Positions 48,082-60,379 of a stretch of 64,000 nt of DNA are shown here, one piece after another. The stretch is from Candidatus Bathyarchaeia archaeon (GTDB lineage Archaea; Thermoproteota; Bathyarchaeia; Bathyarchaeales; Bathycorpusculaceae). The DNA is taken from positions 62,001 to 126,000 of the forward strand of contig JAVZEV010000001.1 in the NCBI GenBank assembly GCA_038873195.1, in the 5' to 3' direction. The translations under genes were made by a program, and so were the position numbers. The first letter of the stretch is position 1; each line of letters opens with the position of its first letter. The notes beneath the pieces are model-generated. The model saw only the letters and a program-made list of their open reading frames with translations, was not told the DNA's origin and made no database searches.

Positions 48082-51000
48082 ATGGCAACAGAAGAAGTAA
48101 TCCATAAAGTTGTTGACGAAATCTATTTTGGTTTACTTTCTCCACAAGACATGCGCAAACTCTCAGTTGTCGAGATTCAAACGCCAGACACGTACGACGA
48201 AGACGGTGCTCCCATCACTGCTGGACTAATGGATGGCAGACTCGGTACACTTGAACCTAGACAAAGATGTAAAACATGCGGTAACACTGCAGTTCGCTGT
48301 CCTGGACATTTCGGGCATATCGAACTTGCAGTTCCAATAATACACATTGAATTTACGAAAATAATACATGATCTTTTGAGGGCAACTTGCAGAAACTGTG
48401 GACGCATACTATTACCTGATGAGACCATTAAGAGAGTTCACGCAAGAGTTGATAGAACTCGCCAACTTCTCGGCGTTGTTCCAGACGAAGTTTACAAAGT
48501 CATCATTCAAGAAACAAAGAATAAACAATGCCCTCATTGTGGTGCCATCCAGTATAAAATAGTCTTTGAAAAACCCACAAAGTTTAGTGAACAAATCCCA
48601 GAAAGCGGTTCTGAACCTTTAACACCAAGCATGGTTCGCGAAAGACTAGAACGCATACCCGACGAAGACCTTGAACTTTTGGGTTTCAATCCCAAAGCCG
48701 CGCGTCCAGCTTGGATGGTTTTACAAGTCTTGCCGGTTCCTCCCGTCTACGTTCGCCCTTCAATAACTTTGGAATCGGGCATTCGCTCAGAAGACGACCT
48801 CACTCACAAGCTTGTGGATATAATTCGCATAAACCAACGGTTGAAAGAGAACATGGAAGCTGGGGCTCCTACGCTTATAATTCAAGACTTGTCTGAACTT
48901 CTCCAATACCATGTTACAACCTATTTTAACAATGAGGCTTCTGGTATACCGCCAGCGCGACATCGTTCTGGAAGAGCATTAAAGACGCTTTCTCAGAGGC
49001 TTAAGGGCAAGGAGGGAAGATTCCGAAGCAATCTTTCTGGAAAAAGAGTTGACTTTTCAGCGCGCACAGTTATTTCTCCAGATCCAAACCTTGACATAAA
49101 TGAGGTTGGGGTTCCACTTGAAGTTGCCATGCGCTTGTCTGTGCCTGAAAAAGTGACTGAATGGAACATTGAGGAAATGCGCCAGCTTATCATAAATGGA
49201 CCTGAAAAATACCCTGGCGCCCTTTACATCATTAGACATGACGGCAAACGCATAAGACTTGAATTTGTAATTGATAGGACAAAGATTGCTGAAGCTGTAG
49301 AGCCTGGCTTTATTGTTGAGAGGCATCTGAAAAACGGTGATATTGCCATCTTTAACCGTCAACCTTCACTTCACCGCATGTCGATAATGGCTCATTACGT
49401 GCGCGTTTTGCCCTACAAAACATTCCGCTTGCACCTGTGCGTGTGTCCGCCTTACAACGCGGACTTTGACGGAGACGAGATGAACTTACACATACCACAA
49501 AGTGAAGAAGCACGGACAGAAGCACTTCTGCTAATGCAAGTCCAAGACCAAATACTCTCTCCAAGATTTGGAGGTCCGATAATCGGAGCCATTCGAGACT
49601 TTATAACCGGCGCATATTTGTTTACAAGAAAATCAAACTATTTAACAAAACAAGAAGTCAACAGGTTGCTGCTTGCAGCAGGTTACGATGGACCTTTACC
49701 AGAGCCAAAAATCAAAGAACCACAACCTCTCTGGACGGGCAAACAAATTTTCAGTCTGTTCCTACCAAAAGACATGAACTATGTTTTAAAGGCAAACATT
49801 TGTCAAGGGTGTTCCAAGTGCGAAGAGGAAGATTGCAAATATGATGCTTATGTGGTCGTCAGAAATGGTGAACTTGTGAGCGGTGTCATAGATAGACGTT
49901 CGATAGGTGCTGAACAATCCGAAAGTCTTCTTCACAGAATAATAAAGGATTATGGAACAAAAGCAGGACGCGAATTTCTGAACAAGATAACTCGATTGTT
50001 GAAACTTTTTATATCAATGCGTGGCTTCACATATTCATACGAACAACTCGTTTTATCTCCAACCGCGGAGAACAAAATAAACAAAACAATGGAAAGGGTT
50101 CAGAAGAAAGTTGAGGAGTTAATAGAAGGCTACCGCAAGGGCACTCTGCCCAGACTTCCGGGGCAGACACTCGAGGAATCTTTCGAAATTTATGTAATGA
50201 ATGAATTAGCCAAAGCCAGAGACGACGCTGGAAAAATCGCTGACGAAGATTTTACTATCGAAAATGCTGGCATAGTTATGACTCGAACTGGCGCGAGAGG
50301 TTCAAGCCTAAACATTGGACAGATGAGCGCATGTGTAGGGCAACAATCAGTACGTGGCAAAAGAATACTGCGTGGGTATCTAGGTCGCGCTCTGCCCCAC
50401 TTCAAATCTGGCGACCCGACACCAAGAGCGAGAGGGTTCGTGTATTCATCTTATCAAAGCGGGCTTGACGCGGTTGAATTTTTCTTCCATGCTATGGGTG
50501 GTCGTGAAGGACTTGTGGACACAGCCGTTAGAACACAGCAAAGCGGATACATGCAAAGACGACTGATTAACGCACTTGAACATATACGGTTGGAGTATGA
50601 CGGAACAGTAAGAAACTCTGCAGGCGATATAATTCAGTTCAGGTACGGCGAGGATGGAGTTGACCCTGCAAAAAGCGACCATGGAAAGGCTGTGAACGTG
50701 AGCCGACTAGTTGAGCAACTTAGGATAGCTGAAGAAAAAGGTAAGCCAGCGCCGGAAGATTACATTAAGAAGCAACTAGAGGAAGTTGAGAATGAACTTA
50801 CTCCTATACTTGTTGATGAGCTTAAACAAAGTTTAACTAAAGCGAAACTTAGCAAGGCGTGCGTGGATAAAGCGATTAAGTTAACTGTTGAAAACTATAA
50901 ACGAGCCTTAATGGAGCCCGGCGAAGCCGTAGGAATAGTTGCAGCGCAGTCAATAGGCGAACCAGGCACGCAGATGACTCTTAGAACATTCCACTACGCT

Positions 51001-51906
51001 GGAGTTAGAGAGCAAAACGTGACTTTAGGCCTGCCAAGGCTTATAGAGATTGTAGATGCTAGGAGAATTCCATCCACACCCATAATGACGATATATTTAG
51101 ACGAAGTGCACAGAAAAAGCAAGGAATCCGCCGTAAAAATTGCACGCAGTATCATTTACACTACATTAGAGGATTTAGCCCAAGCAATTTATGAAGATCC
51201 GGTGAATGAGGAAATAGTTGTTGAGCTTAATAAAACAATGATGGAAGATCGTGGAGTGACTTTACAGGAACTGAAGGAAAAACTGCAGATTCAGAATTCC
51301 ACTGTGAAGATGAAGGGAAATCACATACATATAAAGCCCAAGAAAGCTGAAGCCCTAAAGAGGCTGCTTGGTAAAGTTTCTGCTTTTCACATTAAAGGAG
51401 TATCCGGTATAAAGCGTGTCCTTGTTACGGAAGAGCGTGGAGAATGGGTCATAAGAACTGACGGTTCAAACCTTCCGAAGGTTTTGGAAGTTTATGGCGT
51501 GGATACTTCGAGGACAACGACAAATAACGTTCACGAAATAGCTAAGACTCTTGGAATTGAAGCGGCTAGAAACGCGTTGATGAATGAGTCTAAGGGTGTT
51601 CTCGAAGAGCAAGGCTTGGACGTTGATATACGTCATGTTATGCTTGTCGCAGATATGATGACGTCAACTGGCGAAGTGCAACAAATCGGTAGGCACGGCA
51701 TAAGCGGCAAGAAATCAAGCGTCTTGGCAAGAGCAGCATTCGAAATAACTGTTCCAAACATTGTTGAAGCAGCCATAAAAGGCGAAAGCGACCCATTAGA
51801 AGGTGTAACCGAAAACGTAATAGTGGGGCAGTCAATACCCATTGGTACTGGACTTGTAGAGTTATACATGTCAACATCCGAATCTAAGGGAGAGAAAGAG
51901 GAATGA
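48082..51906 (+). CDS. rpoA: DNA-directed RNA polymerase subunit A (A' and A'' fused)
   Basis: The 1274-residue protein contains, in one chain, everything usually divided between A' and A''. N-terminal zinc-binding 'CKTCGNTAVRCPGHFGHIEL', the catalytic 'YNADFDGDEMNLH', and the bridge and trigger regions are followed without a stop by 'EPGEAVGIVAAQSIGEPGTQMTLRTFHYAG', normally near the N-terminus of A''. The junction falls at about residues 870-900. No intein or linker is seen. An undivided A is known from Thaumarchaeota and a few other TACK lineages and is a helpful lineage marker. Confidence 0.97.
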   Translation: MATEEVIHKVVDEIYFGLLSPQDMRKLSVVEIQTPDTYDEDGAPITAGLMDGRLGTLEPRQRCKTCGNTAVRCPGHFGHIELAVPIIHIEFTKIIHDLLRATCRNCGRILLPDETIKRVHARVDRTRQLLGVVPDEVYKVIIQETKNKQCPHCGAIQYKIVFEKPTKFSEQIPESGSEPLTPSMVRERLERIPDEDLELLGFNPKAARPAWMVLQVLPVPPVYVRPSITLESGIRSEDDLTHKLVDIIRINQRLKENMEAGAPTLIIQDLSELLQYHVTTYFNNEASGIPPARHRSGRALKTLSQRLKGKEGRFRSNLSGKRVDFSARTVISPDPNLDINEVGVPLEVAMRLSVPEKVTEWNIEEMRQLIINGPEKYPGALYIIRHDGKRIRLEFVIDRTKIAEAVEPGFIVERHLKNGDIAIFNRQPSLHRMSIMAHYVRVLPYKTFRLHLCVCPPYNADFDGDEMNLHIPQSEEARTEALLLMQVQDQILSPRFGGPIIGAIRDFITGAYLFTRKSNYLTKQEVNRLLLAAGYDGPLPEPKIKEPQPLWTGKQIFSLFLPKDMNYVLKANICQGCSKCEEEDCKYDAYVVVRNGELVSGVIDRRSIGAEQSESLLHRIIKDYGTKAGREFLNKITRLLKLFISMRGFTYSYEQLVLSPTAENKINKTMERVQKKVEELIEGYRKGTLPRLPGQTLEESFEIYVMNELAKARDDAGKIADEDFTIENAGIVMTRTGARGSSLNIGQMSACVGQQSVRGKRILRGYLGRALPHFKSGDPTPRARGFVYSSYQSGLDAVEFFFHAMGGREGLVDTAVRTQQSGYMQRRLINALEHIRLEYDGTVRNSAGDIIQFRYGEDGVDPAKSDHGKAVNVSRLVEQLRIAEEKGKPAPEDYIKKQLEEVENELTPILVDELKQSLTKAKLSKACVDKAIKLTVENYKRALMEPGEAVGIVAAQSIGEPGTQMTLRTFHYAGVREQNVTLGLPRLIEIVDARRIPSTPIMTIYLDEVHRKSKESAVKIARSIIYTTLEDLAQAIYEDPVNEEIVVELNKTMMEDRGVTLQELKEKLQIQNSTVKMKGNHIHIKPKKAEALKRLLGKVSAFHIKGVSGIKRVLVTEERGEWVIRTDGSNLPKVLEVYGVDTSRTTTNNVHEIAKTLGIEAARNALMNESKGVLEEQGLDVDIRHVMLVADMMTSTGEVQQIGRHGISGKKSSVLARAAFEITVPNIVEAAIKGESDPLEGVTENVIVGQSIPIGTGLVELYMSTSESKGEKEE

Positions 51907-52801: not shown

Positions 52802-53389
52802 CTACGCTTTCGTTTCTGTTCCCAAAAGTAAATCTATTAGTGCTTTCTGGTCTATTTCGGCGCGTGTTCTCCAGTCCAAATATAATTGTTCATTCTCGTC
52901 TTGCGTTAAGTATCCGTAACGAATGTAACGGTCAATGTTAATGTCCACTTTCCACCCAGGAAGTTTATCGCGTAAAAGTTCCTCTACCTCTTTTCGTGGA
53001 GCTTTTCCCTTCTTAGAAATTATGTAAGCTATCGCTATTGCCAGTCCAGCCAAGTCGTCTATTCGCCACCCTATCATCTTAGCTTCTTTTGGCGTTAATT
53101 CGCCTCGTAGTGTTATGTAAAATCTAGCTTTGTCCAGCAGCTCCAGCGTTGGCTTCTCAACAGTTTTCTCTTCTTCAAAAACCGTTTTGACTTGCAAATC
53201 AAGCGCTTTCAAATAGTTATCTAGAATGTTCAAAACTTTTGGGTAATCTGCACCTAAGGCTTTTCGAAGTTCCCAACCTTTCACTCCCGGTTTGGCATGT
53301 CTGCGGTAGAAAAGCATGTGTGTTGCACGTTTGAGTTTGCTTGCATAGTAGCCTTTTCGTTTGCTCACTTTAGCTCTCCTCGTTTCCAT
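52802..53389 (-). CDS. Tandem winged-helix protein, putative KITE subunit of SMC5/6-like complex
   Basis: ATG 53389 (TTG 53398 possible) overlaps the kleisin-like gene by 25 bases; about 195 residues. A basic N-terminus precedes a first winged helix (about 35-75; 'GWELRKALGADYPKVLNILDNYLKAL'), a linker, and a second one (about 120-180; 'RKEVEELLRDKLPGWKVDINIDRYIRYGYL'), ending 'LDWRTRAEIDQKALIDLLLG'. Size and tandem winged helices match KITE proteins (ScpB, Nse1, Nse3), which bind kleisins in SMC complexes. Gene order SMC, kleisin, KITE supports this; remote homology is inferred, not demonstrated. Confidence 0.7.
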   Translation of the reverse strand: METRRAKVSKRKGYYASKLKRATHMLFYRRHAKPGVKGWELRKALGADYPKVLNILDNYLKALDLQVKTVFEEEKTVEKPTLELLDKARFYITLRGELTPKEAKMIGWRIDDLAGLAIAIAYIISKKGKAPRKEVEELLRDKLPGWKVDINIDRYIRYGYLTQDENEQLYLDWRTRAEIDQKALIDLLLGTETKA

Positions 53390-54192
53390 TTCATCCAATT
53401 GTCAGTTGTGACGGCTATTGGTATGGAAACCAACTGTTTCTTGCCGATTTTTGTTACTGGTTTATCGTATGGCTTGATTAAGATTTCTTCTTCTAACGGA
53501 TAAACCTCTAACGTTGCATAACCATAGGTTATTAGAAAACTCGTCATGAACGCCCTATGCACTGTTTCCTCGTAGGTTTCTGCGCCAACAAAATCCCAGT
53601 AACGAATTCTTCCATCGTCGCCTTTCTCCTTAACTTTACTTTTCATTTCCTGCCAGAAATTCTCTAATTCTTCAGAGAAGGCTTTATCACGTAGAATTCT
53701 TTGTTTAACAAGCTCATCTCTTGTCGTGGTGCCCGCTTCAAACTCTGCTGTTGGAAATTCTTTCCATCTTTCCTTGAGTGGCAAAAGGTTCTCCCAGTAT
53801 TTCATAGCTTCTGCAATGCTATGAAGCGAAATTTGTTCTAATTCGACAATAGGATGCCAAGCCTTGAAGAAGACTTCAACCATATCTTCTTTATCTATTC
53901 GGGTGAGTTTTTCCTCTAATAGGAACGGGTCCGTGTAAAGCGAAGTTGAGCGATGTTTCACCCATTCGCTTTGAAGTTTTATAACCGAGGCTAAACGATG
54001 AACAGTTTCAGCGTCTAAGCAAAGGTCTTCTGGAACTTCCCATTCTGGAAAATACTCTTTAATTACGCTTATAACTTCATTGACATCTATTAAAAATGGG
54101 TCTAGCGAGCGTTCCTCGACAGACTTACACATTTCGATTATGCGTTGAAGCTTTTCTTTACCGATGCGAATTCGCTCTCTTTTCGGCTGCAT
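53365..54192 (-). CDS. Putative kleisin subunit of SMC5/6-like complex
   Basis: The 275-residue protein starts on the last base of the SMC-like stop (TAATG), so translation is coupled. Its N-terminal region ('IDVNEVISVIKEYFPEW', 'LDAETVHRLASVIKLQSEWVKHR') resembles the ScpA/kleisin helical segment, where an acidic-hydrophobic block is followed by 'LA..I.LQ'. A helical middle and a beta-rich C-terminal part ('ATLEVYPLEEEILIKPYD') follow. Kleisins bridge the two SMC heads. Family assignment rests on context plus this weak pattern; a fold search is the proper test. Confidence 0.6.
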   Translation of the reverse strand: MQPKRERIRIGKEKLQRIIEMCKSVEERSLDPFLIDVNEVISVIKEYFPEWEVPEDLCLDAETVHRLASVIKLQSEWVKHRSTSLYTDPFLLEEKLTRIDKEDMVEVFFKAWHPIVELEQISLHSIAEAMKYWENLLPLKERWKEFPTAEFEAGTTTRDELVKQRILRDKAFSEELENFWQEMKSKVKEKGDDGRIRYWDFVGAETYEETVHRAFMTSFLITYGYATLEVYPLEEEILIKPYDKPVTKIGKKQLVSIPIAVTTDNWMKWKRGELK

Positions 54193-56132
54193 TAGGCAAC
54201 CTCTCTGATTATCGATTTGCCTTCGATGTTCTGGACAGTGATTATGTTTGCTTCTTCCTCTGCGAACGTTATCTGGCTTGGCGTAATCACAATATATTGG
54301 GCATCAGCATCCTTGACTGTTGAAATGAGCATTTTCGCGATTAACTCGCGGTTTTTAGGATCCATGTGAATATCATATTCGTCAACAGCGCGGAATGGCG
54401 AGCGAACGTGCTGTTGCAAGGCTAATAGGAAACTCATTGTTGCAGTGGTTCTTTCTCCTCCGCTTTGCGTGTAAGCATCCAACGGAACAGGTTTTCCGCC
54501 TTTAAAGCCCACTAAAATTTCTAATCCAGCAACTTCCATGTCATGTCCATTAGCGAGTCTAACTTCACCAACAGCTTGAGCTTGGGCAAGAATTTTTTGG
54601 TACTCGAGATTCACGCGGTCTAGAAGGTTTTGGATGACTGTTCGCCAAGCTTGCATTCGTGTTTTAACTTCTTCTAACGCCTTTTCTCGGTTTTCGGCAA
54701 CTAACTGCGCCTTTTCTTTCAGTTCTAAGTAAAGTTTTGAGTAGGATTCGTACATGCGTTCTATGTCTTCTGAAACATCCGCTAGAGCGGCCAAATGTCC
54801 GTCTGTGATGCGGATTTCATCTAAGATTTCGCTGATGCCTTTTATCACTGCAATTCTGGAACCGGTCTGCTCTGCTTTCGCTATTGCATCGTTTAAGTGA
54901 ATTCGTGCAGTTTTCAACTCGCTTTCGATTTGCTTCAAGTTATTGATTGCGTTTTCTCTTCGATATTGAAGCAGTGCCAATTTAATGCGACTATCCAAAA
55001 TCTGATTGCTGACTTTTTCAGTCTCTTCTTCTAAGCTTTTTGTTTTTAACTGAATTTCTTTTATTTCTGTGTTTAACTTTGACAGTTGGCTTGTGGAGTT
55101 TTGCATGAGCTCCTTTAAATTTTCACTTTTCAGAAGTTTAGGTTGCATGGGCAAAGGTTCTTTCATTATCGCTTGGAGATGCGGATTCTCAAGCATAGTT
55201 ATTTCTTTTAATAGCTGTTCGCACAACGTGATTGTCGATTCGTTTCGAGCCTTTTCGCATTCAAGATTCAAGCGCTTATCAAAAAGTGTTTTCCATTCTT
55301 TTTTAAGTTCTTCAAATGTGTTCCGCTGAACTTGTAATTCTTCTTCTACTTTTCGTGTTTCTTCTTCAATCTGGTTAACAACATCCTTTTCTCTTTTCAT
55401 TCCTTCCTCTAAATTTTTGACTGCTTCCTCTTTTCTGGCAACTTCTGCCCATGCAAGCTCTCTTTCCAAAAATCTTCTTTTCGTTTGCAACTGTTTTTTC
55501 TCTTGGAATCTGTCGTATTGCTCCCGCCAATAGTTAAGCGTCTGCTCTGCTGATTCCAAGAGCTTACTTACTGATTCTTCTTGGCTTAGTATGCGTGTGA
55601 GCTTTTTCTGAGCTTGCAAAACATTTTCGCGGTAAGGCTCCAATCCAACAGCTGCTTCCATCATGCGAAGTTTTTCTTGCGTGGAAAGTATAGTGAATTG
55701 TTCAACCATGTTCTGATGCATGATGATGAGCATATTGTCTGGGTCTACGCCCAACTTGTCCAAGAGTCTTTCAACATCCTGCTTTGTAACCGCTCTATTT
55801 TCAAGTTCAAACCAGTACTGTCCATCTCTACGAAGAACACGTGTGAGAAAAATTTGGTCTTTGTTAAATTTCTGAACTGGGCGGTTCTTTCCCCTTCGAG
55901 TGTTATCTAGAATAAGTGTCACGCGAGCTTGGTCTTTTCCCCATCGGATTAGGTTGCTCAGTTTTTTGGACCGTTCCGTATAAGATTGTCCCAATGCCAC
56001 GGAGATAGCCAACAACAGAGAGGACTTTCCAGAACCGTTTGGTCCGCAAATGACGTTTACTCCATGTTTAAACGGTACCCTAGCATATTCGTAGCTCATG
56101 AAGTTTTCTAGGATGACCTCCTGAATCAGCAT
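54192..56132 (-). CDS. SMC5/6-like chromosome-associated ATPase with short coiled-coil arms
   Basis: ATG 56132, with GAGG just upstream, gives 646 residues. The N-terminus 'MLIQEVILENFMSYEYARV' and Walker A 'GPNGSGKSS' (30-38) are followed by 'LLDKLGVDPDNMLIIMHQNMVEQF', a pattern I know from Smc6/Smc5. At the C-terminus, 'TQSGGERTTATMSFLLALQ' is the signature and 'SPFRAVDEYDIHMDP' the Walker B, both closer to Smc5/Smc6 than to SMC1-4, Rad50 or bacterial SMC. Coiled coils occupy about 190-520. The protein is about half a normal SMC length, and no clear hinge domain is seen. Role: probably DNA tethering or repair with the two downstream partners. Confidence 0.85.
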   Translation of the reverse strand: MLIQEVILENFMSYEYARVPFKHGVNVICGPNGSGKSSLLLAISVALGQSYTERSKKLSNLIRWGKDQARVTLILDNTRRGKNRPVQKFNKDQIFLTRVLRRDGQYWFELENRAVTKQDVERLLDKLGVDPDNMLIIMHQNMVEQFTILSTQEKLRMMEAAVGLEPYRENVLQAQKKLTRILSQEESVSKLLESAEQTLNYWREQYDRFQEKKQLQTKRRFLERELAWAEVARKEEAVKNLEEGMKREKDVVNQIEEETRKVEEELQVQRNTFEELKKEWKTLFDKRLNLECEKARNESTITLCEQLLKEITMLENPHLQAIMKEPLPMQPKLLKSENLKELMQNSTSQLSKLNTEIKEIQLKTKSLEEETEKVSNQILDSRIKLALLQYRRENAINNLKQIESELKTARIHLNDAIAKAEQTGSRIAVIKGISEILDEIRITDGHLAALADVSEDIERMYESYSKLYLELKEKAQLVAENREKALEEVKTRMQAWRTVIQNLLDRVNLEYQKILAQAQAVGEVRLANGHDMEVAGLEILVGFKGGKPVPLDAYTQSGGERTTATMSFLLALQQHVRSPFRAVDEYDIHMDPKNRELIAKMLISTVKDADAQYIVITPSQITFAEEEANIITVQNIEGKSIIREVA

Positions 56133-56286: not shown

Positions 56287-56973
56287 ATGGTTGTTGCAGG
56301 CAAAGTCTTCAGACTTTCTGAACCACTTTCTACTACTGAAATCGCATCGCGCCTCGAAGGCTACCACACAGAAGAGCCCTATGAGGAAGGCGACTACAAG
56401 TTTACACTCGTAACCGAAGTTGTTGGGCTTCTGCCAAAGGAAGGCATGCTTAAAGGTATTTATTCACACGATTATGTTCTCCACATTTTTCACAGAGGCA
56501 AAGTAGCACCTTTGCCGCGTACTGTCGAAGCTCTCTTCAGCTTCTCACAACATGAAGACAATACTTTCTTGACTGTTGTTGAAAAGAAACGCATAGCAAA
56601 CTTCATCGCAAATAAGCTGAGCGAAATACTCTTCGAAAAAATAGGCAATGTATTAGAAGCCAGAATTCCCCCAGAAACCCTCAAGGATTTCCACTTGAAA
56701 AACCCAGAAGACACAAAAATCACCTTCTTTGACAATGTTGACATTCCAAACGTGAATAAACTCTCGCTTTATGGTCCAGATTTGATTAATACTTCGCTTT
56801 TTGAAGATTACTGCAAACATGGTGATTTATGGTATGTTGTTGCAAGAGCAAGAGAATACGGCTACGTTGTAGGCGTAACCAGAGACGCCTCAGTAACAAT
56901 CTTCAATTTAACAGATAAAGAAAAGTACTTGGAGTATGTCGCTAAAGAAATTTATCAGCTGATAACAACATAG
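56287..56973 (+). CDS. Conserved hypothetical protein divergent from the SMC-like operon, 228 residues
   Basis: A soluble alpha/beta protein with no signal or membrane segment. It includes 'FTLVTEVVGLLPKEGMLKGIYSHD', 'LPRTVEALFSFSQHEDNTFLTVVEKK' and a C-terminal 'AREYGYVVGVTRDASVTIFNL'. I do not recognise it. Because it shares a promoter region with the SMC5/6-like cluster, a functional link is possible but unproven. Confidence 0.7.
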   Translation: MVVAGKVFRLSEPLSTTEIASRLEGYHTEEPYEEGDYKFTLVTEVVGLLPKEGMLKGIYSHDYVLHIFHRGKVAPLPRTVEALFSFSQHEDNTFLTVVEKKRIANFIANKLSEILFEKIGNVLEARIPPETLKDFHLKNPEDTKITFFDNVDIPNVNKLSLYGPDLINTSLFEDYCKHGDLWYVVARAREYGYVVGVTRDASVTIFNLTDKEKYLEYVAKEIYQLITT

Positions 56974-57187
56974 ATGTTGCAGCTTAAGACTAACAAATCA
57001 TTAATTCATAAGTTTTAAAGCTCCGAAAAAACAATTAATAAATGGTTTAATGGAAGCGAAATAATGAGCATATCTGAAAAATTTTCTTCCTCAAAAGCTG
57101 AGATGCAACTAAAATTCAACAGATTAACATGCCGTGTTAATAAACTACAAAAGAACCATGAAAATTCTGGGGGAGGATGAACAGTTT

Positions 57188-58429
57188 ATGGCGCGCTATC
57201 AAGGATTGGGCGTAGACATTAAAGCTCTGTTAGAAAAACTGAAGTTTTCTATGGAAAAACAAGGCTACAAAATAGAACGTGTGCTAACCGGCGAGACCAG
57301 TTTTCTAATCGAGTATAAAAAGGGAGGCATGCTTGCAGCAAAAGAAACCTTAAGCGTGAAAGGCGTTCCGGACGATTTTGTTGTTTCAGGAATTAGGGAG
57401 GATAACCAAGAATTATGGTTCATAGTTGAAGACGTTATCTTGGCTTCTGCACGGAATCCTCAAGCCTTCAAAAGCCACACAGAACAACTCGCGCCACCTG
57501 CACCTCCACAACCAACAGCACCTGCAATGCCGCCTCAAGCTGTTCCACCGCCTCCAGCTCCAAAACCGGCACAACCGCTCCCTACAAACTGCAGCCGATG
57601 CGGCGCTCCAATTACTGTGACGCAGGAAGATTTGATATTTACGTGTAGATATTGTGGTTTCACGATGACTGTGGCTTCAAGAGAAGAACTAAAAGCTCAC
57701 AGTATGTTAGAAAACCGTCTTCTTTCTCAGCAAGCAGTTGATGCCGCACGGAAATACATGGACAAGGGCATTTTCAGAGTTGGTGTTTCAAAAGACGCCC
57801 AAATCACCAGCGTGAAACTGCGTTATGTTCCTTTCTGGGTTTGCCAAGCTACCACAAACACGTTTTTGAAAGGTGTTACTGGCACGGGAGTCATGGGGGA
57901 AATCCATCAAGCACAAGAAGCTGTGTCTGATAAACGCTCAAGCGGGCTGGCAAAGTTTGGAAAACTCATTCTCGCCGGAGCCAAAGCTTATGCTGAGACG
58001 CAGCAAAAGGACAAATCGCCAAGGCATGTCTCTTACTCATTCTCAAACACTTACATTTGGCCAACATTAGCTAGGCGAACAATGATAAGCGAGATTAACT
58101 ATTATGATGTGCCAGCAGCCAGAAAAATTCCGTTTGATGTAGGCAAAGTGCCGCAGGACGCTGAATTTCTCAACATAGAATTAAACGAGGAAGAAGCCAA
58201 AGCCAAAATTCGAGCGGAAATAGAAGCCAAAGAAAGGTTGATTGCAAGTGGCAAAGTTGATACTCTTGAAACTTGCAGTGTAAACGTGACTCTTGGAGAA
58301 GCTGAACTGGTGCACGCACCCGTCTGGTTTGTCCATTATACTTTAAAAGGAGAAAACTACGTTATTGCAATAGACGGTTGTGAAGGAAAAGTTTTAGGTG
58401 GAGGAAGACCTTTATTTAGCATCGGTTAG
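57188..58429 (+). CDS. Zinc-ribbon protein, first gene of an SPFH operon
   Basis: ATG 57188 is preferred because GGGGGAGG lies 11 bases upstream (GTG 57134 and ATG 57158 are alternatives); 413 residues. An N-terminal alpha/beta domain is followed by a Pro/Ala-rich linker (about 110-138), a zinc ribbon 'CSRCGAPITV...CRYCGF' (about 140-165), and a long C-terminal domain ('YVPFWVCQATTNTFLKGVTG', 'VHAPVWFVHYTLKGENYVI'). The repeated 'PFWVC...' and 'PVWFVHY' segments resemble proteins encoded next to SPFH genes. Function unknown. Confidence 0.75.
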   Translation: MARYQGLGVDIKALLEKLKFSMEKQGYKIERVLTGETSFLIEYKKGGMLAAKETLSVKGVPDDFVVSGIREDNQELWFIVEDVILASARNPQAFKSHTEQLAPPAPPQPTAPAMPPQAVPPPPAPKPAQPLPTNCSRCGAPITVTQEDLIFTCRYCGFTMTVASREELKAHSMLENRLLSQQAVDAARKYMDKGIFRVGVSKDAQITSVKLRYVPFWVCQATTNTFLKGVTGTGVMGEIHQAQEAVSDKRSSGLAKFGKLILAGAKAYAETQQKDKSPRHVSYSFSNTYIWPTLARRTMISEINYYDVPAARKIPFDVGKVPQDAEFLNIELNEEEAKAKIRAEIEAKERLIASGKVDTLETCSVNVTLGEAELVHAPVWFVHYTLKGENYVIAIDGCEGKVLGGGRPLFSIG

Positions 58430-58442
58430 AAGGTTGAAAAAA

Positions 58443-58970
58443 ATGGCAGAAAGAGAAACAATAGAAAAAGTGAAAGACAAGCAGGGAATACTTGCCAAAA
58501 TCCAAAACGTATTCGGCTTAGGATACGCAACAAAAGAAGACCTACGCGAGTTAGACAAGAAACTTCGAGACCTATATCACTCTGACTTCAAAACGTTGCG
58601 CCACAGATGGGAAGAACTTTACTTGGCAGCGTTAAACGCTGGAAAAGCCACAGACGACTTCAAAAAGGTCATACAAATCATGGATAGGATTGCTGAAAAA
58701 GTTCACCATGCTGATTATGGATATGCTGGTTTGATGGACCGCAAGGGACACATAAGAGAAACTGAGTTAGCGCGGGTTTTCAATTATGACAAGGCATTAA
58801 GCGCTGATGTTGAGGCAATAGTGAACGCTGTGAACGAACTCCACAAAGACAGCGAAGCTGAAAATTGGACGGAAGCGGCAGCCAAAGCTAAGAACATTAA
58901 ATCCTTAATACTGGCGTTTGAATCTAAATGGGATGAAAGAGAAAAACAGTTCAGACCGTTGGAGGTGTAA
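58443..58970 (+). CDS. Helical coiled-coil protein of the SPFH operon, 175 residues
   Basis: The start is ATG 58443, 13 bases after the previous stop, with AGAAGGTTG before it. The protein is nearly all helical and highly charged ('YATKEDLRELDKKLRDLYHSDFKTLRHRWEELYLAAL' region), without signal or membrane segment. It ends 5 bases before the SPFH gene. No family is recognised; it probably binds the SPFH protein or its membrane patch (inference). Confidence 0.7.
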   Translation: MAERETIEKVKDKQGILAKIQNVFGLGYATKEDLRELDKKLRDLYHSDFKTLRHRWEELYLAALNAGKATDDFKKVIQIMDRIAEKVHHADYGYAGLMDRKGHIRETELARVFNYDKALSADVEAIVNAVNELHKDSEAENWTEAAAKAKNIKSLILAFESKWDEREKQFRPLEV

Positions 58971-58975
58971 GTTAA

Positions 58976-60058
58976 ATGCCAGTTATTGAAAAAGTATCAT
59001 GGGACTATGCAGGAGCAGAAGACATAGCCTACAGATTCCCAAATCTTTCACTCAAGTATGGAAGTCAAGTCATAGTTAAAGAAAATCAGTGGGCTGTCTT
59101 CTTTCGAGACGGCAAAGCCTATGATGTTTTTGGACCTGGAAGACACACGATTACAAGCAATAATATTCCACTTTTAACTGCTGCTTTGAGGGCATTACGT
59201 ATAATAGGCGACATTTTCGACTGCGAAGTTGTTTTTGTAAGCAACAGCCAGTTTAGAGCAAACTTTGGTGGCACAGCCTACTCGGCGCCAAGCGGCGACA
59301 TAAAGTATCAAGCTGAACTGGGATTTTTTGGCTACATGCTTTACAAAGTTGAAGACCCTAAACTTTTTGTTGTTGAGTTCTTCGGCAACCGTGGTGCCAG
59401 TTCATCCAGAGATGTTGAAAATTACATTCGTGGTTTCATAAACGAGCGCATAATAAATGAGTTTGGCAACCATGATATATTCACTGTTGTGAAAAATGTT
59501 GATGCTACTACTGATAAGGTTACATTGAAAATAAGCGATGAAGCGGCAAGAGTCGGCTTAAAAGTCATAGACTGCGTCTTCGAAGGTGTCAAAATCCCAG
59601 AAGAAGCAAGAAGGTTTGCGTCTGGAATGGGCGCTCAAGCTATGATGATGCAGTACATGAAAGAAACGGCAACAGAACTTAAAGGAAGCGAAGGTGGAGG
59701 CGCAGCGGCTGCTGGTTTAGGCGCTGGAATGGGCTTAACGATGCCTTACATGATGGCTCAGCAGATGCAGCAAGCACAAGCCGGTCAACCTCAGCAATTA
59801 ATAATTTGCCAAAGCTGCGGTGCCAAAAATCCTGTGGGCACAAAATTCTGTGGTAATTGTGGTGCAAGTTTAGCTCCGCAGGCAAAAGTTGTTTGTCCCA
59901 AATGTAAGGCTGAAAATCCTGCTGGGACGAAATTCTGCGGAAACTGTGGCACTCCCCTTACTCAACCAGCTGCCAGTGAAATAACTTGTCCAAAATGTAA
60001 CGCGAAGAATCCAGTGGGAACAAAATTCTGCGGTAATTGCGGAGAAAAATTAGGCTAA
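58976..60058 (+). CDS. SPFH (band 7) domain protein with three C-terminal zinc ribbons
   Basis: The 360-residue protein has an N-terminal SPFH domain (residues about 20-225; 'SQVIVKENQWAVFFRDGKAYDVFGPGRHTI', 'YMLYKVEDPKLFVVEFF') of the YdjI/virion-core-like type. A Gly/Ala/Met-rich linker (235-270) follows, then three zinc ribbons with repeated 'NPVGTKFCGNCG' and 'CPKC' (about 275-358). SPFH proteins form oligomeric rings on membranes; this type lacks a transmembrane segment. The three zinc ribbons are near copies of one another. Confidence 0.9.
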   Translation: MPVIEKVSWDYAGAEDIAYRFPNLSLKYGSQVIVKENQWAVFFRDGKAYDVFGPGRHTITSNNIPLLTAALRALRIIGDIFDCEVVFVSNSQFRANFGGTAYSAPSGDIKYQAELGFFGYMLYKVEDPKLFVVEFFGNRGASSSRDVENYIRGFINERIINEFGNHDIFTVVKNVDATTDKVTLKISDEAARVGLKVIDCVFEGVKIPEEARRFASGMGAQAMMMQYMKETATELKGSEGGGAAAAGLGAGMGLTMPYMMAQQMQQAQAGQPQQLIICQSCGAKNPVGTKFCGNCGASLAPQAKVVCPKCKAENPAGTKFCGNCGTPLTQPAASEITCPKCNAKNPVGTKFCGNCGEKLG

Positions 60059-60084
60059 AGAGCTTTACTTTCTCTTTTTTCTAG
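60059..60084. terminator. T/A-rich region between convergent SPFH and zinc-ribbon genes
   Basis: TTTACTTTCTCTTTTTT starts 6 bases after the SPFH stop and overlaps the 3' end of the convergent gene, giving an oligo-T terminator for the plus strand. Confidence 0.4.
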
Positions 60085-60379
60085 TTTTCTTTGTTTCTTT
60101 TAGCGGAGAGCCACATTTTACACAGAATTTCATGTTTGAAGGCACAGTTGCTCCACATTTTACGCATTGAGTAGATGATGGTGGGTATAGGGATTGGCCG
60201 CATTGTCCGCAGAACTTGTTTTCAACGGGGTTCTTGTTGCCACACCGTAGGCAGATAATAACTTGTTTAATGATTCTTTCTGGTGGTTTCATGGTTTGAG
60301 AAATATACTGCGCCATAGTTAATCCTAAAGCTAAGCCGATTCCAGCGGAGAAAGCTTCGCCGACGGTGTATTTAGTCAT
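60065..60379 (-). CDS. Double zinc-ribbon protein with hydrophobic N-terminus
   Basis: The 104-residue protein has an N-terminal Gly/Ala-rich, weakly hydrophobic segment ('AFSAGIGLALGLTMAQYI'), then two zinc ribbons ('CLRCGNKNPVENKFCGQCG' and 'CVKCGATVPSNMKFCVKCG'), and a basic tail 'KTRKKRK'. The first part mirrors the linker plus ribbon of the convergent SPFH protein ('GLGAGMGLTMPYMMAQ'), suggesting derivation from it by partial duplication and inversion. Confidence 0.8.
   Translation of the reverse strand: MTKYTVGEAFSAGIGLALGLTMAQYISQTMKPPERIIKQVIICLRCGNKNPVENKFCGQCGQSLYPPSSTQCVKCGATVPSNMKFCVKCGSPLKETKKTRKKRK

Follow-up and report, generated by a model that had tools for sequence, protein, structure and literature searches.

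The Smc5/6 complex is generally viewed as the least understood of the eukaryotic SMC complexes, and its origin is debated. It contains Smc5, Smc6, the kleisin Nse4, and Nse1 and Nse3, plus Nse2 and Nse5/6. Archaeal 'SMC5/6-related' SMC proteins that group with SMC5/6 have been described (Yoshinaga & Inagaki 2021, cited in PMC9389158), and PMC9389158 mentions only an ATPase phylogeny for this group. The evolution of SMC proteins 'from archaeal ancestors' is the subject of van Hooff et al. 2025 (Cell Reports, doi 10.1016/j.celrep.2025.115855, cited in PMC13142630). The canonical archaeal Smc-ScpA complex is described as KITE-less (PMC7055376). The operon described here encodes an ATPase with heads closest to Smc5/Smc6, a kleisin closest to Nse4 and a KITE protein closest to Nse1/Nse3. 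Most likely it specifies a compact, Smc5/6-related archaeal complex of SMC, kleisin and KITE, whose dimerisation, DNA clamping and stoichiometry are inferred without any experiment.

The operon lies in a 64,000-nucleotide stretch of a Bathyarchaeia genome (the window), whose assembly consists of two contigs, 1.63 Mb in total, and is 98% complete. The genes of the locus are as follows.

54192..56132, minus strand: Smc5/6-related ABC ATPase gene, 646 aa from ATG
53365..54192, minus strand: Nse4-like kleisin gene, second in the operon, 275 aa
52802..53398, minus strand: Nse1/Nse3-like KITE gene, third in the operon, tandem winged-helix, without RING
56287..56973, plus strand: conserved divergent neighbour gene, 228 aa

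An alternative upstream TTG start would add 22 aa to the ATPase. The KITE protein has 198 aa if translation begins at the TTG and 195 aa if it begins at the ATG (53389). An earlier note, made from the sequence alone, had claimed a three-gene operon at 52802-56132 with translational coupling by a TAATG and then a 25-base overlap. Both claims held: the reading frames are found at these positions on the minus strand, the TAATG overlap at the ATPase/kleisin junction is confirmed in the sequence, and the overlap between the kleisin and KITE genes is 25 bases with the ATG start. The Smc5/Smc6 peptide patterns that the note had quoted from both ends of the ATPase are also present, and the likeness to Smc5/6 is supported by the results below. 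In roughly half of the loci the operon is flanked by the 228-aa divergent neighbour, for which no Pfam or PDB relative was found. It is possibly part of the system, although its membership is unproven.

The three genes travel together. Kleisin and KITE homologues accompany the ATPase in the same order in 79 of 80 Bathyarchaeia loci, where the operon is near-universal and vertically conserved, lying beside rpoA/L30e/nusA in several cases. Of 41 loci sampled from further families in the class and in the phylum (deeper Thermoproteota), 37 also have the three-gene set. In 144 of 146 complete loci the genes follow one another directly on the same strand, the median gaps being -1 and -28 nt; two genome collections were used for this count, so that some genomes are counted twice. 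A chance arrangement is excluded, because the same three genes recur in the same order across loci. In a phylum-wide sample counted by hand, the ATPase is present (E<1e-50) in about 158 of 398 genomes and about 38 of 65 families. The family is common among archaea that have received little study. The remaining genomes give weak matches or none, and the weak matches that were inspected proved to be either canonical SMC or ATPases of a shorter, Rad50-like size. In genomes with a split set, the kleisin and KITE genes lie elsewhere in the same genome, and in genomes without the ATPase, including two single-contig ones, the kleisin and KITE are also missing apart from marginal matches. This joint gain and loss is our strongest argument that the three genes form one machine. 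That their products work as one complex is an inference, with neither a modelled complex nor an experiment behind it. As for a viral or mobile origin, a scan of IMG/VR with a profile of diverse ATPases gave distant partial matches only, mostly to the head, and such an origin was rejected.

The ATPase has an N-terminal head at approximately residues 1-165 and a C-terminal head at approximately 500-646, joined by antiparallel coiled-coil arms at ~165-290 and ~360-500; the apex between the arms is variable. The arms are ~120-140 residues long, estimated at roughly 18-20 nm. The Walker A motif is GPNGSGKSS (30-38), the signature is SGGER (557-561), and E585 is the Walker B/catalytic glutamate. Since K36, E560 and E585 do not vary among the 51 members of a diverse set, the short-armed enzyme is presumed to be active, an inference that rests on the intact motifs. 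The sequence matches Pfam SMC_N at 3.3e-37, and the NCBIfam ASRP model weakly (64 bits against a cut-off of 300).

The earlier note had described the 646-residue ATPase as lacking a clear hinge, and this is upheld by Pfam, by the family alignment and by a canonical SMC used as control. A Pfam search of the window ATPase returned no hinge at E<=1, and for the 51 members SMC_hinge (116 model positions) does not appear in the 25 Pfam models matched most often. The canonical SMC of the same genome, as positive control, matches SMC_hinge at 8.7e-22. Members of the family are 572-691 aa long, with one contig-cut fragment set aside. Conservation is high in both heads and the adjoining arms and drops sharply at residues ~280-360 of the window ATPase; the apex segment measures 0-119 residues in the family (median 37) and carries no CxxC hook. 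The ATPase family thus has no hinge domain.

The closest structural relatives of the ATPase are Smc5 and Smc6. In a PDB search with the single sequence, the first four matches are Smc6, Smc5, Smc5 and Smc6, which we take to be the vertebrate Smc6, yeast Smc5, vertebrate Smc5 and yeast Smc6 chains, in that order. With the family profile, Smc6 (2.5e-54) and Smc5 (1.9e-46) are best, followed by canonical Smc (1.4e-35) and SMC2 (1e-23). The match to Smc5/6 extends beyond the Walker motifs and spans the C-terminal coiled coil adjoining the head. A head-domain tree was built from 42 sequences and 354 columns (22 archaeal Smc5/6-like, 4 eukaryotic Smc5/6, 10 canonical SMC and 6 Rad50), leaving out SMC1-4, RecN and MukB. 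SMC is split from Rad50 in this tree. By the AU test, the union of the ATPase with Smc5/6 is accepted, while its unions with canonical SMC (p=0.011) and with Rad50 (p=0.003) are rejected. The clade of the archaeal group with Smc5 and Smc6 is itself weakly supported in the unconstrained tree (UFBoot 47), which does not resolve the order in which the three branch from one another. It should be mentioned that long branches might attract one another in such a tree. Taken as a computational result, the ATPase heads belong with Smc5/Smc6, with weak support for the clade as such.

These results bear directly on a reading of the ATPase as a Rad50/RecN-like DNA-repair enzyme whose neighbours have winged helices only by coincidence. 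Its size and absent hinge recall RecN, and Rad50 profiles match the head at 1.9e-25. However, the union with Rad50 is rejected by the AU test (RecN being absent from the tree), there is no CxxC hook, the partners resolve to a kleisin and a KITE protein with strict co-occurrence, and the window genome encodes another protein that weakly matches the Rad50 zinc hook. This reading is all but excluded.

The kleisin gene provides the second line of evidence. The Pfam model Nse4_C matches 57 of 61 Bathyarchaeia homologues (best 1.8e-6) and 33 of 49 members of a diverse set (best 5.6e-9). The window kleisin alone matches it weakly, at 0.006 and 17.2 bits, under the curated cut-off of 26. When a profile of the diverse set was searched against the PDB, the top four matches were Nse4, Nse4, Nse4 and EID3 (9.3e-5 to 5.3e-4); a designed binder (0.049) came next, and ScpA C-domains after it. 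A six-frame Nse4_C search of 41 whole genomes hit the operon's kleisin gene in the genome of the window and in almost all carriers that gave a match, and 1 of 14 control genomes gave a match, under the cut-off. In the AF2 model (pLDDT 83), a helical bundle at the N-terminus (4-84) and a C-terminal, Nse4_C-like winged helix (169-241) are joined by an extended middle segment of low confidence. In a Foldseek search with this model, 7qcd_F (Nse4) ranks first at 1.6e-4, ranks 1-12 are exclusively kleisins, and ScpA C-domains are among the next matches after Nse4. The second gene is shown by computation to encode an Nse4-like (delta) kleisin.

The third gene is assigned mainly through its fold. AF2 models its product as a tandem winged helix (pLDDT 88.8), and in a Foldseek search of the whole PDB only four chains are matched at E<=0.001, 5hvq_C/D and 7dg2_A/C, all of which come from Nse1-MAGE-G1 or Nse1-Nse3-Nse4 structures. 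Beyond this threshold, MukE, ScpB and Smc5/6 chains are intermixed with cullins. When 49 diverse homologues were searched against 24,736 Pfam models, ranked by the number of members matched, MAGE was the most frequent (7 members, 0.0026) and SMC_Nse1 the third (3 members, 0.015). A Pfam search with the single sequence gave no match, nor did a Bathyarchaeia-only profile. The likeness to Nse1/Nse3 is visible only with the phylum-wide family and the AF2 model. A whole-genome MAGE search picked the operon KITE gene in five genomes and missed that of the window genome, so such a search alone is not diagnostic. The E-values of MAGE and SMC_Nse1 are weak on their own, and identity in the fold matches is 13-14%. 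The protein contains no cysteine and therefore has no RING. With the reservation that the sequence E-values are weak, the computation shows an Nse1/Nse3-like tandem winged-helix KITE protein.

The kleisin and tandem winged-helix KITE shapes claimed by the earlier note are thus borne out by AF2 models, Foldseek and sequence profiles. The note had named two outcomes that would refute it, and neither was observed. In the head-domain phylogeny the ATPase did not group with Rad50 or with canonical SMC, RecN not being covered, and the small proteins did not fold unlike kleisin and KITE, matching Nse4 and Nse1/Nse3 instead. Profile searches with the two candidates, which it had proposed, gave the Nse4_C, PDB Nse4, MAGE and SMC_Nse1 values listed above. 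Its suggestion of a minimal relative of the SMC5/6 complex holds as the best reading; strict identity with Smc5/6 does not, there being no heterodimer, hinge or RING and a single KITE gene.

The locus could also be viewed as a reduced canonical SMC-ScpA(B) condensin, in which an ordinary archaeal SMC has lost the hinge and is paired with proteins like ScpA and ScpB. The ATPase belongs to the same superfamily and matches TIGR02169 at 1.1e-51, and ScpA and ScpB do appear among the Foldseek matches of the partners. However, the union with canonical SMC is rejected by the AU test, Smc5/6 is placed above canonical SMC in every PDB search, Nse4 ranks above ScpA and Nse1/Nse3 above ScpB, and the window genome already has a full canonical SMC of 1183 aa with a hinge. 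We consider this explanation very unlikely.

The canonical SMC is the only other strong SMC-family gene in the window genome, where no second Smc5/6-like gene was found. We also checked 20 carriers from eight other families (>=90% complete) for canonical SMC. In 17 of them the best match of the canonical-SMC model is the operon ATPase and no SMC of ~1180 aa was found, so that no SMC-family protein other than this ATPase was detected; the other three have both. Incompleteness of the drafts is an unlikely cause of canonical SMC being missing from all eight genomes of one family (f19). It is possible that the operon encodes the sole SMC complex in the lineages of these 17 carriers.

A third alternative is an SMC-like anti-plasmid or anti-phage defence system resembling Wadjet or Lamassu. 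In its favour, PADLOC matches the ATPase head to mad3, LmuB, AriA and JetC; Wadjet likewise consists of SMC, kleisin and KITE, and restriction of viral DNA is an activity of the eukaryotic Smc5/6 complex (PMC10586767). On the other side, no nuclease or effector (JetD, LmuA) is found in the operon or conserved alongside, the kleisin and KITE have no PADLOC match, the IMG/VR matches are distant and partial, and the distribution in Bathyarchaeia, beside rpoA/L30e/nusA in several genomes, is not sporadic. Such a function is very improbable. From the housekeeping conservation and the absence of an effector, we infer that the complex acts in chromosome maintenance or repair rather than in defence.

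For the Smc5/6-related complex we propose the following mechanism, by inference from what is known of SMC-kleisin complexes. On ATP, two ATPase copies would engage head-to-head. The kleisin would bridge them, with its N-terminal helices on one neck and its C-terminal winged helix on the other cap, and a KITE dimer would sit on its middle segment. Heads, kleisin and KITE may together clamp DNA above the engaged heads, and hydrolysis would release it. Because the arms are short and the hinge is absent, the usual hinge-dependent SMC ring cannot close, and without a classical closed ring an ATP-gated DNA clamp or short-range translocator is likelier than a canonical long-reach loop extruder.

As a single ATPase gene stands in for Smc5 plus Smc6 and a single KITE gene for Nse1 plus Nse3, the complex may resemble a pre-duplication state. 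A bolder reading, against which we still lean slightly, is that it is a surviving pre-duplication Smc5/6, three-gene and hinge-free, and the sole SMC complex in several lineages without canonical SMC. If this were true, the hinge would be dispensable for an SMC-kleisin complex that maintains a chromosome, and eukaryotic Smc5/6 would descend from an archaeal complex inherited whole, with ATPase, kleisin and KITE. A complex in archaea that combines the three types of core subunit makes the origin of Smc5/6 directly testable and, canonical archaeal SMC complexes being described as having no KITE, supplies an archaeal source for KITEs of the Nse1/Nse3 type. A natural hinge-less SMC-kleisin complex, to all appearances the sole SMC protein of some lineages, would show which is essential, the head clamp or the hinge-closed ring, and its small size is attractive for structural work.

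We have compared the operon to the described systems. The ATPase is likely of the same family as the archaeal SMC5/6-related proteins of 2021, and so not new, although the sequences were not compared. In the open-access literature searched, nothing was found on the Nse4-like and Nse1/Nse3-like operon partners, the absent hinge or the occurrence as sole SMC; some of these points may already have been made by van Hooff et al. 2025. Subject to that paper and to Yoshinaga & Inagaki 2021, the partners, the missing hinge and the sole-SMC status are likely the new parts. Canonical Smc-ScpA is likewise an archaeal SMC-kleisin complex, with a hinge and reportedly without a KITE, whereas the operon has a KITE and no hinge. 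ASRP (coalescin/ClsN, Sph; PMC9389158) and Arcadin-4 are, like the operon ATPase, archaea-restricted ATPases of the SMC superfamily. No conserved neighbours are reported for ASRP, in contrast to the fixed kleisin and KITE partners here. Wadjet JetABCD and MukBEF share the SMC-kleisin-KITE composition, but the operon has a different head family, no JetD nuclease and a much smaller SMC subunit. Of the general features of SMC-kleisin-KITE complexes, it has the ABC motifs of the head, namely Walker A, the signature and a Walker B that includes the catalytic glutamate, and its kleisin has the N-terminal helical domain and the C-terminal winged helix. Compared to eukaryotic Smc5/6, it has one ATPase gene instead of an Smc5/Smc6 pair, one KITE gene, no hinge, no RING and much shorter arms, and no counterparts of Nse2 or Nse5/6 were seen within the operon. 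It lacks the heterodimer, hinge and RING that define Smc5/6, so the complex should not be called 'Smc5/6'; the accurate name is 'Smc5/6-related hinge-less SMC-kleisin-KITE complex'.

A gene of unknown family neighbours the SMC-kleisin-KITE operon in the window:

56287-56973, + strand: 228-aa protein, unknown family, neighbour of the operon

A homologue of this protein lies close to the operon in 30 of the 62 examined loci, of which 21 belong to other families, and the gene is divergent to the operon in nearly all cases. No relative of the protein was found in Pfam or PDB. It could possibly be a fourth component or a regulator of the operon system.

A large helicase (~940 aa) resembling aLhr lies downstream of the operon, convergent with it, in many families of Thermoproteota (18/62 loci); the aLhr-like helicase loci include L122, L130, L132-L136, L140, L142, L145, L149, L155 and L156.

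The operon arrangement has exceptions among the loci carrying an ATPase homologue. The kleisin/KITE genes are shifted by 2.5 kb in L078 (5001-10951), run in the opposite transcription direction in L148, and are non-adjacent, located elsewhere in the genome, in L137 and L147. In L055, they were not seen inside the stretch of DNA retrieved around the locus.

Elsewhere in the window, the RNA polymerase largest subunit (48082-51906) is seemingly a single fused 1274-aa gene, not split into A' and A''. At 57134-60379, an SPFH/Band 7 protein that carries double zinc ribbons is adjoined by other zinc-ribbon proteins whose function is unknown. A series of large secreted proteins spans 96-30000, adjoined by an apparent oligopeptide ABC transporter; the only two scanned carry CARDB, dockerin, cohesin and beta-helix domains.

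Full-length canonical SMC was not detectable in 17 of the 20 carrier genomes checked, each ≥90% complete (families f19, f23, f35, f37, f45, f55, f56 and f64 of the phylum-wide sample), in which the hinge-less ATPase is the sole SMC match, Rad50-sized proteins aside. Two single-contig genomes from the same order as the window, G073 and G271, have apparently lost all three operon genes while retaining canonical SMC, and the system therefore appears dispensable in some lineages.
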